The notes beneath the pieces were generated by a model. That model did no database searches, was not told the origin of the DNA, and was given only the letters and a program-made list of their open reading frames with translations. From assembly GCF_008629695.1 (NCBI RefSeq), contig NZ_VWSH01000001.1, positions 337,990-401,989 on the forward strand: a stretch of 64,000 nt of DNA. The letters run 5' to 3'. The stretch's first letter is position 1. Every line of letters begins with the position of its first letter. The DNA comes from Taibaiella lutea. GTDB lineage: Bacteria; Bacteroidota; Bacteroidia; Chitinophagales; Chitinophagaceae. The position numbers and the translations under genes were made by a program. Positions 19,873 to 62,114 of this stretch are shown here, piece after piece.

Positions 19873-21303
19873 ATGAGATTATCCACGGCCAAAAGAAGAG
19901 CAATTATCATATTGATAGTTATCGACTACCTGACAGCAATTGCTGCATGGTTAGTATTTTGGTTGTATCGTCAGCATTTATTGCATCAGGCTTTTCCCGA
20001 TATTTATCCAAAGGAAAGAAATTGGTCGGCACGTGACTATATTATTTCGTTTTTAATAATTCCTGTTTTCTGGATTTTTCTTCATTACCTCTCAGGAGCT
20101 TATTTTGATTTATACCGTAAATCGAGATTAATTGAAATATATCGCAGTATTATCATCAGTATTATTGGCTCCTTGCTTATCGGAACAGTAGCCTTCTCAA
20201 ACGATACAGGCAGTTTTAAATATTTCTTTGAAATAACCTCCTGGTATTTCGTTACGCAGCTTTTCTTTTTGCTTGTTTCAAGAATGTTCTGGCTATATAA
20301 AGTCAAGCGTGATCTCTTAAAAAGAAAGATTGTATATAAAACCCTTATTGTAGGCGGGAATGGAAAAGCAACCAAAGTTTATAATGAAATAAAAGATAAT
20401 CCGCATGTTCTGGGAAATGAGGTTGTCGGCTTTGTAAGTGTCGACAAAAATGTAACGCCGTTAAATATTCCTAATGTACCTGAATTAGGCAATATAGAAT
20501 CGCTGGAAAACATCATTCAGGAGTATAAGATTGAAGAAGTAGTAATTGCGGTGGAATCTCACGAACATAATAAACTGGAACATTTATTAACAAGATTAAG
20601 CTACAGTCCTATAATCATAAAGGTTTTACCGGATTTATACGATATCATTTCAGGTTCTGTCAGGATTAATAATGTTTATGCTCCATTGTTAATAAGTATT
20701 CACCCAGAGTTATTGCCCGATTGGCAAAAGGTTTGCAAAAGAGTGATTGATTTTACTATTTCGGCATTGTGTCTGATATTACTTTCGCCAGTTTACCTGT
20801 TTGCAGCATTAAAAGTCAGGTTATCATCACCCGGCCCTATTTTCTATAAACAGGAAAGAATTGGCCTGTTCGGTCAGCCATTCAATATTTACAAGTTCCG
20901 TTCCATGTACATGAACGCCGAGGAAAGCGGACCTGCATTGAGTAGCGATGAAGATCGAAGAATTACGCAATGGGGCAAAATTATGCGTAAATGGCGCATT
21001 GACGAATTGCCACAGTTTTTCAATATTCTAAAAGGCGATATGTCATTAGTAGGCCCAAGGCCTGAAAGAAGATTCTTCATTGATAAAATTGTACCTTCTC
21101 ATCCGCACTACAAATACTTGCACCGTGTAAAACCGGGGCTTACCTCCTGGGGAATGGTTCAGTATGGTTATGCCGAAAATGTGGAACAAATGATTGAGCG
21201 GATGAAGTACGATTTGTTATACATAGAAAACTGCTCTATCGCGCTGGATATAAAAATTTCACTTTACACCATCAAAGTTATTTTTCAGGGAAGGGGGAAA
21301 TAG
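19873..21303 (+). CDS. Polyprenyl-phosphate sugar phosphotransferase (exopolysaccharide initiation)
   Basis: 476 residues. Four transmembrane helices lie in the first 140 residues, a CoA-binding-like Rossmann middle domain (TLIVGGNGKATKVYNEI) covers about 155-260, a fifth helix follows near 290, and the bacterial sugar transferase domain fills 290-476. The transferase motifs QERIGLFGQPFNIYKFRSM, LRKWRIDELPQFFNILKG-like (MRKWRIDELP) and SLVGPRPE are present. It transfers a hexose-1-phosphate to undecaprenyl phosphate at the inner membrane, the first step of exopolysaccharide or O-unit synthesis. It probably forms an operon with the oxidoreductase upstream. No other polysaccharide genes follow, so this is an isolated initiating enzyme. 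Confidence 0.93.
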   Translation: MRLSTAKRRAIIILIVIDYLTAIAAWLVFWLYRQHLLHQAFPDIYPKERNWSARDYIISFLIIPVFWIFLHYLSGAYFDLYRKSRLIEIYRSIIISIIGSLLIGTVAFSNDTGSFKYFFEITSWYFVTQLFFLLVSRMFWLYKVKRDLLKRKIVYKTLIVGGNGKATKVYNEIKDNPHVLGNEVVGFVSVDKNVTPLNIPNVPELGNIESLENIIQEYKIEEVVIAVESHEHNKLEHLLTRLSYSPIIIKVLPDLYDIISGSVRINNVYAPLLISIHPELLPDWQKVCKRVIDFTISALCLILLSPVYLFAALKVRLSSPGPIFYKQERIGLFGQPFNIYKFRSMYMNAEESGPALSSDEDRRITQWGKIMRKWRIDELPQFFNILKGDMSLVGPRPERRFFIDKIVPSHPHYKYLHRVKPGLTSWGMVQYGYAENVEQMIERMKYDLLYIENCSIALDIKISLYTIKVIFQGRGK

Positions 21304-41657: not shown

Positions 41658-41707
41658 ATATATCCAACGGGAAAAATACCGATTTATTTTTTGATGCGGG
41701 TAAATGA

Positions 41708-41737
41708 AAAACCGCACTGAAATTTCAGTGCGGTTTA
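41708..41737 (-). terminator. Terminator of the first tandem barrel gene
   Basis: AAAACCGCACTGAAA and TTTCAGTGCGGTTT form a long stem. It also sits at the 5' edge of the giant outer-membrane gene. Confidence 0.85.
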
Positions 41738-41758
41738 AATAACATAAAATGATATTAC

Positions 41759-42430
41759 CTATTTACTTTTGAGTTTAAAAGCATAGCCAACCGTAAATGA
41801 GACTCCCTTATTCATCATTGATGCGTCTCCACCAAAGTTTGAAAGATTGGCAAGTCCGAGACCATATTGAATACGACCATAAATTCCGAACGGCGTCCTG
41901 TATCCTGCACCGAAATTTAAGCCGTAATCAAGCGCTTTTATTTCATCTTCACCTGAACCGAAATTAATATCTTCTTCAGTTGTTTCATCGGGCATTCCTG
42001 TTATTTTAAGTGTACCTTTTGTTTTGCCTGATAAACCATAACCTAAGTATGGACCAACGGTAACAAAAATTCCTCCTAAGTTACCCATATCAAAGTCATA
42101 TCCCAGGTTTAACGGAATTTCAAGATAGTTTAGGCTAATTGTGGTTTTTGAACTTGCGGTAACACCTAATATCGACAATGTAGTAGTTTCCTGTCCACCC
42201 TTCATGCTATATAAGATTCCCGGTTGTATAAAAAATCCGTTTGAAATAGGAATATTGAAATACAGACCTGCTTTTGCCCCCATTTTGCCGGAGATATCCT
42301 GTGAATTTCCGTTGTCATCTTTAATAGAAAGGCTGGAAAGGTTAATACCAGCTTCCGGTGCAATTGACATTTGAGCAAAAATACTTTGGGCAACAAATAC
42401 CGTTGCAATAGTTAATAAAATCCTCTTCAT
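41759..42430 (-). CDS. Outer-membrane beta-barrel porin-family protein (tandem copy 1)
   Basis: 223 residues with a signal peptide cleaved after SIFAQ. The mature protein is an eight-stranded type barrel of the PorT/OmpW-like OMPbb family, with PEAGINLSSLSIKDDNGNS at the start, GFFIQPGILYSMKGGQE, YLEIPLNLGYDF and FTVGYAFKLKSK at the end. It is about 65% identical by eye to the next gene upstream (42626). Both are followed by their own terminators and share upstream sequence, so they arose by tandem duplication. Expected to be an outer-membrane channel or scaffold; the ligand is not known. Confidence 0.88.
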   Translation of the reverse strand: MKRILLTIATVFVAQSIFAQMSIAPEAGINLSSLSIKDDNGNSQDISGKMGAKAGLYFNIPISNGFFIQPGILYSMKGGQETTTLSILGVTASSKTTISLNYLEIPLNLGYDFDMGNLGGIFVTVGPYLGYGLSGKTKGTLKITGMPDETTEEDINFGSGEDEIKALDYGLNFGAGYRTPFGIYGRIQYGLGLANLSNFGGDASMMNKGVSFTVGYAFKLKSK

Positions 42431-42572
42431 ACAGTAAAAATTTAATTGTTTAAATAGTTATTGCAAATTTCATGCCACAATTACATAATCTAAATTAAAT
42501 TAACATTTTACAAGGTTATTCCAATAAAAATACCAAACACAGCCAGCAAAATTTTATTATCTGTTACAAATA

Positions 42573-59075: not shown

Positions 59076-60209
59076 ATGGACGATTTATATTCGTTTTTTG
59101 CTACCAAACATTTTGCAGAACTTCCTTTGAATGATGCCGAACACGATTTACAAATAGGTAAAAGGATTCAGGCCGTTACAGATTACAACAACGACTGGAG
59201 CGAGGCCGAAATCGTTATTATAGGTTGCGGTGAACAAAGAGGGAAGGATATGCAGGCACCTTACAGCAATGCTGCAGATGCAGTCAGGGCTGAATTATAC
59301 AAGATGTATGACTGGCACACTTCTATCAAAATTGCCGATATGGGCAACATACTGGAAGGTGCTACACCCGGAGATACACGCGCAGCATTACGTACGGTAT
59401 TGCAGGAAGTAGAAGCTACGGGAAAAATTGCAATTGTTATCGGCGGTTCGCATGATTTGACATTACAACAATATGAAGCTTATAAAAAAGCGGAAAAAAC
59501 CATCAATGCGGCAGTCATTGATATGAAAATAGATCTGGAAGAAACCGAAGGCATAAGTGATACAGGTTTCCTGATGGATATGCTTACCGAACAACCAAAT
59601 TTCATACGTCATTTCAGCCATCTCGGGTTTCAAAGTTATTATGTAAACCCTGCCATGCTTGAAACGCTTGACAAGCTTCGCTTTGATTGCTTCAGGCTTG
59701 GAAGGGTGCGCGATAATATGGAAGAAATGGAGCCGGTTTTACGCAACTGCGATTTGCTTAGTATAGATATGAATGCGGTGAGGCATTGTGATGCACCTTT
59801 TGTCAAAGACGGTTCTCCCAATGGTTTCTTTGGCGATGAAATCTGTCAGCTTACCAGATATGCCGGAATGAGCAGTCAGTTATCTTCATTCGGGATTTAT
59901 GGTTATGAACCTGCTCTGGATCTGAATCGTCAGGGTGCAAAGCTGGTTGCACAAATGCTTTGGTATTTTGTGGATGGATATCTGATCAGGAAAAATGAAG
60001 CAGCGCTTTCCAGTTTAGATGAATTTATCGAATACAATGTTGCATTGACAGGCAATGATACACAGTTTTTAAAAAGCAAGAAAACAAATCGCTGGTGGAT
60101 GCAATTACCGGACGGAAGTTATACCCCTTGCAGCTATAATGACTACCTGACCGCCGGTAATAATGAAATTCCGGAACGCTGGTTCAGAGAGCAGGAAAGG
60201 ATAGTTTAA
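59076..60209 (+). CDS. Arginase/formimidoylglutamase-fold protein with incomplete metal site
   Basis: 377 residues. The fold of the arginase superfamily is present. The three metal motifs are altered: GGSHDLTL near residue 122 in place of GGDHS, DMKIDL near 148 in place of DAHxD (Lys replaces His), and SIDMNAVRHCDAP near 228 in place of SxDxDxxDP (Asn replaces Asp). The Bacteroidota formimidoylglutamase group shows similar loss. The rest (FFGDEICQLTRYAGMSSQLSSFGIYGYEP) is intact. It may use a single metal or none. It could still act in His degradation, but no hut genes are adjacent. Cytosolic, with a terminator at 60222. Confidence 0.83.
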   Translation: MDDLYSFFATKHFAELPLNDAEHDLQIGKRIQAVTDYNNDWSEAEIVIIGCGEQRGKDMQAPYSNAADAVRAELYKMYDWHTSIKIADMGNILEGATPGDTRAALRTVLQEVEATGKIAIVIGGSHDLTLQQYEAYKKAEKTINAAVIDMKIDLEETEGISDTGFLMDMLTEQPNFIRHFSHLGFQSYYVNPAMLETLDKLRFDCFRLGRVRDNMEEMEPVLRNCDLLSIDMNAVRHCDAPFVKDGSPNGFFGDEICQLTRYAGMSSQLSSFGIYGYEPALDLNRQGAKLVAQMLWYFVDGYLIRKNEAALSSLDEFIEYNVALTGNDTQFLKSKKTNRWWMQLPDGSYTPCSYNDYLTAGNNEIPERWFREQERIV

Positions 60210-60221
60210 ATAAGTTGCCTT

Positions 60222-60263
60222 AAAATGAAAGCCGATAATAATTTATCGGCTTTCATTTTTTAA
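60222..60263 (+). terminator. Terminator of the arginase-fold gene
   Basis: AAAATGAAAGCCGATAA and TTATCGGCTTTCATTTTTT form a long stem with a T6 tail. Confidence 0.88.
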
Positions 60264-60338
60264 TTACAGCATTAAAACGAGGCAATTATTAATTATAAAA
60301 TAAAATATAAAAGATCACATTCTCCGGTTTGTCGTTTT

Positions 60339-60354
60339 TGGCATGGTTTTTGCA
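60339..60354 (+). promoter_or_regulatory. Sigma-54 promoter (-24/-12)
   Basis: TGGCATG-N4-TTGCA matches the sigma-54 consensus TGGCACG-N4-TTGCW with one substitution, and GG (60340-60341) and GC (60352-60353) are exactly 10 bases apart. Transcription would begin near 60365 on the plus strand, only into the short element that follows. It is the only such site I noticed in the window. Confidence 0.6.
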
Positions 60355-60364
60355 CTAAACCATA

Positions 60365-60430
60365 CATCTTTTCATAGTGTGCGGTTATGGTTCACGCGTC
60401 CTTCATTTTATGGAGGGCGCTTTCTATTTT
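60365..60430 (+). ncRNA. Candidate sigma-54-dependent small RNA
   Basis: After the sigma-54 site comes a region of about 65 nt with TTTTCATAGTG and GGTTATGG, then the terminator hairpin GCGTCCTTCAT-TTT-ATGGAGGGCGC (60396-60420). The hairpin is fully paired only on the plus strand because it uses two U-G pairs, and it ends with TTTCTATTTT. The order and sequence resemble the minus-strand RNA at 8.3 kb. Its 3' end overlaps the last codons of the C45 hydrolase gene on the opposite strand. No credible protein is encoded. The function is not known. Confidence 0.55.
60396..60430 (+). terminator. G-U wobble terminator of the 60.4 kb RNA
   Basis: Arms 60396-60406 and 60410-60420 pair over 11 bp with a TTT loop; two U-G pairs make the stem plus-strand-specific. 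TTTCTATTTT follows. Confidence 0.65.
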
Positions 60431-62100
60431 CTGTTACTACTCATTTTTGCACATTCTTTTATCTTATCTTCTATTGCTTCCCGTTCCTTTACTGTTGCAA
60501 TTTCTTTTGTAAGTGCAATACGATAATTTTCAATAGCGGCTTTATAATTTTTATGTGCTTTATAATAATCGCCTGTTAACCTGTAAGCATCGTAGTACTG
60601 CGGATCATTCTGAACGAAATTATTGACATTAATATTCAGTTTATCCATCCAGTCCATTTTTGTCTGCCGGAACAATAAAAACTTACGATAAACATCCGAT
60701 TGAAGAAACGTGTCAGGCGCTATATTCAGATTTTCGTCAGCAATTTCAACATCCTGATGCAGACCATTCATGGCAAATATTTTCCGTAAATCGTAACAAA
60801 CATATGCACCCATTTGCCAGGGCGAAGTGCTTACCCACATTCGCAAACTGTCCGGCATGAATATTACAGAATGGTGTGCCACAAACTGGTTAACAGCTTT
60901 TTCATTTCCTACTCCGATATCTGCTCCACCCAATCCCTTATAATCCCTGAGAATATTGGCAACTTTCTGCGGGGTCAATGGATAATTTTGTTGCAACAGT
61001 TCCTGTGTACGCTGGAACCTGTATACAGAAGCGCTTCCTGCCATTTGTTCTTCGTTCAGCTTCTGTGTTTTAAACAAATCGCTCTGATAATGATTGGCAC
61101 ATTCAATATTGTCTTTATTCGGGTCATAAACCGCCAAAGTATCGGGCGTCTTTTCTATGATAACAGATTTATGGTCTGCAGCGGAAGCAACCAGAAAACT
61201 CTCACTGACAAACATTTTCCTTTTATGTGCAATAGCTACAGCTTCCTTAATATTTCCGGCATATTGCAACACTTCTCTTGCTACCAGCGAAACAGGTGTT
61301 GCCGCTCCTGTGGGAATAGATGACCTTGCTGCATTAATGGTTACAGACAGGCCTTTATCATTCATACCTGAAACGACTCCGATAAAACCGCCCCATGTCA
61401 CGAAAGCAAACTTATGACCCATTGAAGGCGCTACAAAAGAGACAATCTTATTCTTTGCAAATTCATCGCCTACCCAGAAATCAAAATTACGGCCTACAAT
61501 CAAAGCACCGTTTTCAGTCTTCGTGTCCCAGGCGCTGAAAGACGTACAACCTACCAACATAAGATTTTGTAAAGCATGACCGATATCGTGCGCCGCATGG
61601 TAATTCAACTGACGGGAATAATTAGTACCAATCCACTGAAAACTATCGGAAGCTGCCAATGAAATACCATAAATCTCCTCTTTATACTCCTCTGTAACAT
61701 GTGCCGGCAAATCACGGTTCATGAAGCCGACAATGTATTTCAGGAATTTGAGGTAAGAAGAAGAAGGAATCATTTTCTTTATCTGGTGCGTAAAAGCTTC
61801 TTCCTGAGAAACCACTAACTCCTTAGATAATTTCCCGTTTATAACACCCCGTTCAAAAGGCGTACCGGAGGTGTACATTTCGTACAAACCGTATTTATTT
61901 TTACGTAACCAATTATTGCCTATGGTAAATGCAGTGCTGTCTATATTCCGGCGTTGCAATTGTTCGGCACTCCTGTCTGAAACAACAGGCGGCTTTGCAT
62001 CTGAAACTTTCCAGACATAAAAACAGAAAATGAGAACGGTTATAAGAATAATGCCTATAAACCAGGCAAAAAATCTGAGTATTTTCTTAAGAATGCGCAT
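60424..62100 (-). CDS. C45-family autoproteolytic acyltransferase/hydrolase
   Basis: 558 residues from the ATG at 62100 (MRILKKILRFF); an N-terminal helix anchors it in the membrane. The Ntn-hydrolase motif GCTSFSAWDTKTENGALIVGRNFDFWVGDEF near residue 182 provides the autocatalytic Cys nucleophile, as in acyl-coenzyme A:6-aminopenicillanic acid acyltransferase and related amide hydrolases. GGFIGVVSGMNDKGLSVTINA follows. TPR-like helices (YDAYRLTGDYYKAHKNYKAAIENYRIAL) close the protein. A -7 box ends seven bases before the ATG, so the mRNA would be almost leaderless. Substrate unknown, probably a periplasmic amide. Confidence 0.87.
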   Translation of the reverse strand: MRILKKILRFFAWFIGIILITVLIFCFYVWKVSDAKPPVVSDRSAEQLQRRNIDSTAFTIGNNWLRKNKYGLYEMYTSGTPFERGVINGKLSKELVVSQEEAFTHQIKKMIPSSSYLKFLKYIVGFMNRDLPAHVTEEYKEEIYGISLAASDSFQWIGTNYSRQLNYHAAHDIGHALQNLMLVGCTSFSAWDTKTENGALIVGRNFDFWVGDEFAKNKIVSFVAPSMGHKFAFVTWGGFIGVVSGMNDKGLSVTINAARSSIPTGAATPVSLVAREVLQYAGNIKEAVAIAHKRKMFVSESFLVASAADHKSVIIEKTPDTLAVYDPNKDNIECANHYQSDLFKTQKLNEEQMAGSASVYRFQRTQELLQQNYPLTPQKVANILRDYKGLGGADIGVGNEKAVNQFVAHHSVIFMPDSLRMWVSTSPWQMGAYVCYDLRKIFAMNGLHQDVEIADENLNIAPDTFLQSDVYRKFLLFRQTKMDWMDKLNINVNNFVQNDPQYYDAYRLTGDYYKAHKNYKAAIENYRIALTKEIATVKEREAIEDKIKECAKMSSNRK

Positions 62101-62106
62101 GTGCGG

Positions 62107-62114
62107 CAAAGATA
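62107..62114 (-). promoter_or_regulatory. -7 element of the C45 gene, abutting the ATG
   Basis: The minus strand reads TATCTTTG, with the ATG seven bases after its end. The transcript would start within a few bases of the ATG. Confidence 0.4.

Follow-up and report, generated by a model that had tools for sequence, protein, structure and literature searches.

A sigma-54-type promoter ahead of a predicted small RNA in Taibaiella lutea that appears to belong to a multi-copy RNA family

Paralogous families of small RNAs under sigma-54 control are a known kind of regulator. The Qrr RNAs of Vibrio, which occur in several paralogous copies, are transcribed with sigma-54 and an activator, and the Pxr RNA is transcribed from a sigma-54-type promoter; to our knowledge the regulatory RNAs of environmental Bacteroidota have been little mapped. 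In the excerpts consulted, Pxr is described as a developmental gatekeeper of myxobacteria with paralogs in some species (PMC5568312), and FopS of Bacteroides thetaiotaomicron as a group of 14 paralogous members of about 65-70 nt, mostly intergenic, that act on the translation starts of SusC-type mRNAs (PMC11697453, PMC7366714). The same excerpts assign a canonical sigma-ABfr promoter to FopS and the near-palindromic motif PM2 to GibS, neither of which is called sigma-54 there (PMC11697453, PMC7366714). In Flavobacterium psychrophilum, sigma-54 (SM4) −24/−12 promoters are located ahead of chaperone, protease, envelope and gliding genes, according to the excerpt of that report (PMC9723704). Literature searches on Bacteroidetes/Bacteroidota, Chitinophaga and Chitinophagaceae with sigma-54 or sRNA gave no RNA like the one described here among the matches listed, and the papers listed, those on sigma-54 small RNAs in general included, showed no sigma-54-driven small RNA of Bacteroidota.

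The locus described here is located in a 64,000-nucleotide stretch of the T. lutea genome, called the window below, and judging from its sequence it is very probably the gene for a regulatory RNA of about 65 nt behind an on-demand promoter. It resembles FopS and GibS in being a paralogous small RNA of Bacteroidota, FopS and GibS themselves differing in promoter type. It departs from FopS, as described in the excerpts, in that the window copy carries −24/−12 boxes in place of a sigma-ABfr promoter, while other copies of the family can have TAnnTTTG. Like Qrr, it is a predicted sigma-54-type small RNA with paralogous copies, but it comes from another phylum, has no Rfam match and implies no LuxO circuit; Pxr, compared by its description in the excerpt, is also a paralogous small RNA, but one of another phylum and a developmental gatekeeper. 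The SM4 promoters of F. psychrophilum share the −24/−12 architecture within the Bacteroidota, but in the excerpt they have protein genes and no small RNA behind them (PMC9723704). At the gathering threshold no Rfam 15 family, Qrr included, matched the window RNA (the window has only a tRNA match elsewhere) or 16 related loci. In a permissive scan the matches between 60200 and 60500 centred on a palindrome that follows the upstream arginase-family gene, and five related loci gave only a weak Thr_leader match below the cut-off, overlapping the L206 copy on the other strand. The family seems to be an uncatalogued one from a single group of environmental Bacteroidota, and, as far as we searched, neither this RNA family nor the apparent exchange of promoter class at one of its loci has been described.

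The promoter element, TGGCATGGTTTTTGCA (60339-60354, plus strand), was read directly from the sequence and assessed by genome-wide and spacing controls and by an alignment of congeners. Both boxes are complete (GG-N10-GC, TGGCA/TTGCA) and the gap between GG and GC is exactly 10 bases, in agreement with a first-pass annotation that had read TGGCATG-N4-TTGCA with exact GG/GC spacing. Promoters of this class are inducible and need an enhancer-binding protein, from which it would follow, as that annotation proposed, that the small RNA is controlled in this way. The presence of rpoN, which that annotation had made a test of its reading, was confirmed by a profile search (PF04552, one match, E 6.6e-55), and the genome has 12 matches to the sigma-54 activator domain PF00158, six of them strong (E < 1e-60) and six weak. 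Within the window a loose promoter pattern occurs about as often as expected by chance (13 matches with at most one mismatch, three of them exact, against 9.1 in shuffles, sd 3.3). Genome-wide, the strict pattern TGGCAYGNNNNTTGCA has 13 matches and the reversed pattern 0. Four of these 13 sites fall within ORFs, five lie 47-62 nt ahead of an ORF start and three lie at other distances (4, 25 or 192 nt from the start of a listed ORF); the site in the window is the one that has no gene behind it. When the C of the −12 box was left free to vary (TGGCAYNNNNTTTGNW), the matches with correct spacing numbered 72, 23, 32 and 38 in the Taibaiella genomes G000, G001, G003 and G002, against 19, 4, 5 and 10 with the spacing increased by one base, the single shift run; summed over the four genomes this amounts to a spacing-specific enrichment of 165 against 38. 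The reversed-pattern control gave 6, 23, 7 and 12 matches, and by this control G001 has no excess (23 vs 23). Twenty of 30 inspected TGGCAYNNNNTTTGNW sites lie inside an ORF of at least 100 amino acids on either strand; the remaining ten include TTTGA, TTTGT and TTTGG sites 40-49 nt ahead of an ORF start (L140, L150, L159, L162 and L166).

Eleven bases separate the promoter element from a conserved 25-nt block, ATCTTTTCATAGTGTGCGGTTATGG (60366-60390, plus strand; alignment A4), and sigma-54 geometry, which places initiation about 12 nt past the −12 C, predicts a transcription start at or near 60366. The predicted small RNA of about 65 nt (60365-60430, plus strand) was delimited by sequence, terminator scan, folding, congener alignment and the covariance models R1 to R3 discussed below. 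Its 3′ part is a hairpin at 60396-60420 of 11 pairs, 6 of them G-C, with a loop of 3, recognized by the terminator scan and by folding and carrying two-sided changes in congeners and in the wider family; it is followed by the T-rich terminator tail TTTCTATTTT (60421-60430; sequence and terminator scan). The scan lists this terminator for the plus strand only. The hairpin and T-rich tail noted in the first-pass annotation are confirmed in the sequence, and its reading of the site as a promoter with a small RNA is backed by conservation. The predicted 65-nt RNA folds at −20.6 kcal/mol (z −4.3), a value reached by 0 of 200 shuffles, and its 5′ half is U-rich and mostly single-stranded, with GG-containing motifs.

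The upstream neighbor, on the same strand, encodes an arginase-family protein (59076-60209; PF00491, E 6e-14), and the downstream one, on the minus strand and convergent, a C45/AAT-type hydrolase (60424-62109; PF03417, E 1.2e-20). The stop codon of the latter occupies 60424-60426, and the predicted small RNA is antisense to the 3′ end of this gene. The earlier statement that only a short region converging on the C45 3′ end lies downstream of the promoter holds: we found no plausible protein gene there on the plus strand, and the sole plus-strand ORF of at least 60 amino acids over the RNA is one of 78 amino acids that begins inside the promoter. Small ORFs across the RNA were rejected as candidates, since inspection of A4 by eye showed that the start codon of the 78-amino-acid ORF is missing in relatives. 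A palindrome with a T tract (60226-60261, plus strand), read by eye and seen as a minus-strand self-match, follows the arginase-family gene and is read as the terminator of that gene; it is missing from the terminator scan list, its stem having few G-C pairs or its loop being beyond the limits of the scan. Since the arginase-family gene has a terminator-like palindrome of its own, the small RNA would not simply be the 3′ end of that gene. The locus has the attributes of an independent intergenic small RNA, namely its own predicted promoter, a conserved RNA, a terminator and no conserved reading frame.

A unit composed of the −24 box, TTTG at −12, the 25-nt 5′ block and the covarying terminator was found in all four Taibaiella genomes (T. 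lutea and the congeners T. chishuiensis, T. koreensis and T. helva), in each case between the arginase-family gene, whose end in the congeners was recognized by eye from its C-terminal codons, and the C45 gene. TGGCA, TTTG, the spacing between them and ATCTTT-CATAGT are common to the four sequences of A4, while the spacer and the upstream DNA vary. The −12 region reads TTTGCA in the window, TTTGAT in two congeners and TTTGTT in one, the window being the only one of the four with a complete −12 GC. Hairpin pairing is kept in 95.5% of pairs across the four sequences, with two-sided changes in 3 of the 11 pairs; with so few sequences this covariation is statistically weak, its score being reached by 20 of 500 shuffles and three such pairs by 108 of 500. 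In T. chishuiensis a repeat stretch (around GAGATCCTTCGCGATGCTCAGGATGACA; L035, L047) was seen by eye between the C45 gene and the small RNA. That relatives share the promoter-hairpin pair, as had been suggested for verification, was found in all four Taibaiella genomes, and beyond them the search led to a multi-copy RNA family.

The wider family was explored with covariance models. R1, built from four Taibaiella sequences, and R2 both contain the promoter, and R3 was built, for the window type and its closest relatives, from the RNA without the promoter; at the window R1 and R2 match 60329-60434 and R3 matches 60351-60432, the window being in the training set of all three. R1 found full-length matches in other genera. 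At E ≤ 1 it matched 262 of 394 genomes of the taxonomic family, mostly weakly, and the strongest matches alone were followed; among the 29 hits at E ≤ 1e-4, one (L209) is apparently spurious. L198, a locus of another genus, and T. chishuiensis have in common a 23-nt run, TTCATAGTGCGGTTTATTGGTTT, located 28 nt after the start of the −24 box in L198, against 32 nt. Other subtypes carry the cores TTTTATATACGGTTTATTGGTTA, TTTTTTAAGGGTTTAGGGTTGAA and TTTTTCATAGGATATTGGAT; a terminator-like hairpin comes after each of them, frequently with ATTCTT or a related sequence in the loop. In an alignment of 36 members fitted to the structure, all 11 stem pairs have two-sided changes and the covariation is 0.993 against 0.289 in shuffles; 58 of 500 shuffles reach 11 such pairs and none of the 500 reaches the covariation score. 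A search with the short motif TTTYCATAGTRYGCGGTTAT was abandoned: with at most two mismatches it occurs in 45 of 394 genomes, the reversed control also occurs in many genomes, and exact matches are confined to G000, G002 and G003. Among 29 of 30 retrieved loci, inspected by eye, two have a loose GG-N10-G(C/A) upstream and none has the promoter-hairpin arrangement.

Over 396 genomes of the order, R2 at E ≤ 1e-4 was positive in 22, all of them of the window's taxonomic family, whose share of the 396 is not given. Its matches in the window's own genome are three. The second copy (C1:333603-333712, minus strand) has a sigma-54-type site, TGGCACGATTATTGTA, and lies between an OsmC gene and a gene for a LuxR/NarL-type response regulator; the third (C4:512139-512255) comes immediately after a protein gene, with no convincing promoter. 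These comparisons suggest that the window RNA is a diverged representative of a larger paralogous RNA family. Tandem copies occur at L192 (two), L193 (four) and L194 (five). Those of L192 and L193 adjoin an oppositely oriented relA/spoT-like gene, supported by a profile match in the case of L192. The five copies of L194 and repeated spacer DNA are packed into some 2 kb, close to genes that by eye resemble those of an ECF sigma factor and FecR. A type I toxin-antitoxin system was considered for the tandem copies and rejected, no consistent small ORF being seen by eye between them.

Matches to R1 and R2 are partly selected for a promoter because the models contain one, and promoter-free tests were therefore carried out. 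At E ≤ 1, R3 matched 24 of 81 type-2 loci at the position of the core, 16 of them at E ≤ 0.05, and missed 57. Control loci totaling 500 kb (40 of 57 related loci) gave no R3 hit at E ≤ 1, and its off-target hits were 6 of 44, in 330 kb. The window itself, as part of the training set, scores 49.6 bits. The window type is thus likely to be related to type 2, the commonest subtype, the support being only moderately strong and the relation not tight; L198 and the GGTTTATTGGTT subtype are closer to the window type. The second test used the exact 17-base core AAGGGTTTAGGGTTGAA, which has no match in the four Taibaiella genomes and so concerns sister subtypes: it has 129 matches (counted by hand) in 77 of the 394 family genomes, against 2 for the reversed pattern. 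Promoters were counted in 110 distinct copies with flanks; the other 19 had mostly been fetched already through the promoter-containing models or else lay near contig ends or were not fetched, and a few of the 110 are doubtful as members (e.g. L272, L306, L318 and L320). A script found a terminator in 94 of the 110 copies.

TGGCA is located at −36 to −34 from the core in 40 of the 110 copies, and elsewhere in the 70 nt upstream in 2 more, against 0 and 1 in two control windows. A relaxed TGG-like box is present in 50 copies and absent in 60, at least one strict TGGCA copy occurs in 19 of 25 genera, and 14 of 66 genomes have copies both with and without a TGG-like box. The 40 TGGCA copies have an almost perfect −24 box and, for the most part, only half of the −12 box, the pair at positions 14-15 being TC in 18, GT in 6, GA in 4, AT in 3, GC in 2 and seven others once each. 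Relative to background cells, C is enriched at the −12 C position (15; 22 of 40, background 36 of 480), as is G at the −12 G position (14; 12 of 40, background 32 of 480). The term near-consensus, applied to the promoter by the first-pass annotation, is accordingly correct for the window genome but cannot be extended to the congeners, with their TTTGAT and TTTGTT, or to the wider family. A second type of box is TAnnTTTG, which in Flavobacterium serves the housekeeping sigma factor as its −7 box, according to the excerpt of that report (PMC9723704). When up to one mismatch is allowed, 48 of the 60 copies that lack a TGG-like box have TAnnTTTG, as do 18 of the 50 TGG-type copies. An activator site common to the upstream regions was not recognized: no exact 5-base palindrome occurs in more than 4 of 50 type-2 upstream regions, and enriched upstream words, considered as candidates, proved to be C-terminal coding sequence of the gene for nucleoside-diphosphate kinase (ndk).

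These counts bear on the alternative that survives best, namely that the small RNA is real and conserved but is transcribed by another sigma factor, TGGCA being the site of an activator or of an alternative sigma factor. The −12 GC is rarely complete outside the window genome, as detailed above, TA is favored at promoter positions 17-18 (30 and 32 of the 40 TGGCA copies), a TAnnTTTG-like box accompanies the TGG-type box in the 18 copies just mentioned, and relatives have TAnnTTTG instead in their ndk-linked copies. On the other hand, the −24/−12 site of the window is complete, correctly spaced TTTG is over-represented across the genomes of the genus, the enrichment of C and G falls precisely on the −12 positions, and a start about 24 nt after GG fits the beginning of the conserved RNA. 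We regard this alternative as unlikely, though it deserves to be kept in mind, and a sigma-54-type promoter ahead of a terminated small RNA as well supported by conservation and genome statistics.

With respect to genomic location, a script placed 109 of the 110 copies outside ORFs of at least 100 amino acids. The next downstream ORF is on the opposing strand in 74 of the 104 copies that have both neighbors, and in 51 of the 104 the copy lies, like that of the window, between a same-strand ORF upstream and an opposing ORF downstream. Forty-three of the 110, each from a different genome, stand after an ORF that ends in the C-terminal ndk motif, the identity of one of these 43 neighbors having been checked by profile. 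This distribution weighs against the improbable alternative that the window RNA is a cis-antisense RNA whose sole function is the control of the convergent C45 gene, through 3′-end pairing or transcription interference. Such a role would agree with the overlap, on opposite strands, between the RNA and the stop codon and 3′ UTR of the C45 gene, and with the synteny of the arrangement in four of four genomes, but related RNAs adjoin other genes (ndk and, in L192, relA/spoT) and the conserved 5′ block is outside the C45 reading frame. Pairing with the start of the C45 gene is not conserved either, 8, 11, 126 and 58 of 200 shuffles being as good in the window, T. koreensis, T. helva and T. chishuiensis, respectively. 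Even less probable is that the element is a conserved transcription stop or attenuator, a terminator or leader with no independent RNA. Some cores do begin just 48-60 nt after ndk and one match in the window's own genome directly follows a protein gene; at the window, however, the upstream gene already has its palindrome and T tract, with the promoter in between, the downstream gene is on the other strand, and the conserved 5′ block takes no part in termination. That a promoter-like sequence arose by chance in AT-rich DNA ahead of an unrelated hairpin, as the near-chance frequency of the loose pattern within the window might suggest, has a negligible probability in view of a unit conserved in four genomes and matched by a larger family.

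We infer from the sequence that the RNA is transcribed, that sigma-54 drives its transcription and that it acts in trans on other RNAs; that it is a sigma-54-driven, trans-acting small RNA of about 65 nt, a diverged member of a paralogous family with mixed promoter types, is the reading we favor and consider reasonably likely. In the proposed mechanism, the sigma-54 RNA polymerase would bind the −24/−12 element at 60339-60354 and wait for an ATP-using activator; in response to a signal, an RNA of about 65 nt would be made from about 60366, and the transcript would stop at the hairpin and T tract (60396-60430). By analogy with FopS/GibS, Qrr and Pxr, the RNA might then act on other RNAs through its single-stranded 5′ half, a U-rich 5′ half followed by a 3′ terminator being suggestive of the build of base-pairing, trans-acting bacterial small RNAs. 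In a target search over 335 genes sampled from G000, in which susC was not singled out, pairing with start regions had a mean of −12.0 kcal/mol and mid-gene controls did better (−13.2 kcal/mol); the RNA paired with start regions better than its 10 shuffles (−9.4 to −11.7 kcal/mol), but in view of the mid-gene controls the search does not support a preference for start regions.

The copies after ndk could be the product of an exchange of promoters. TGG-type copies make up 31 of the 43 ndk-linked copies, against 19 of the 67 others, and 7 of the 12 non-TGG ndk-linked copies have an exact TAnnTTTG. Among the ndk-linked copies of genus g69, those of G269 and G159 (the latter found through R1) have TGGCA, those of five relatives an exact TAnnTTTG and that of one neither box. 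A tentative interpretation, to which we give slightly less than an even chance, is that the RNA core is nearly fixed while sigma-54-type and housekeeping promoters replace one another, even downstream of ndk, so that evolution would rewire the timing of the RNA and not its function; the family would be an uncatalogued multi-copy one, of which the window gene would be a genus-specific member with the most complete sigma-54 site. What weakens this interpretation is that an exact TAnnTTTG is not confined to copies lacking a TGG-like box (16 of 60) but occurs as well in 7 of the 50 that have one, and that 44 of the 110 have neither box. If the promoter class does change at a fixed locus, the evolution of small RNA regulation could be tested apart from that of function, and a family that occurs in 77 of 394 genomes, and in 43 of these at a single site behind ndk, offers a ready handle on the target set.

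The 17-base core also matches six IMG/VR viral contigs; three of these (L282, L283 and L285) have what look like real copies, in which a terminator accompanies the core. By eye, the L283 copy (about 1391-1407) comes after what resembles the 3′ end of a tRNA, an arrangement typical of phage attachment sites. A 14-base core matched at least 120 viral contigs, of which those with a TGG-like box have no terminator and were taken as chance.

Two further exact TGGCA-N6-TTGCA sites are present in the window, at 20722-20737 (plus strand) and 42462-42477 (minus strand). The latter is 47 nt ahead of a gene for an outer-membrane, porin-like protein, and this surface protein is likely to be under sigma-54 control. 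In the terminator region after the porin-like gene, R3 has an off-target match (41699-41768, minus strand; 33.9 bits, E 3.4e-4) that scores above all but one of the type-2 loci and may be due to chance or represent a 3′-UTR relative.
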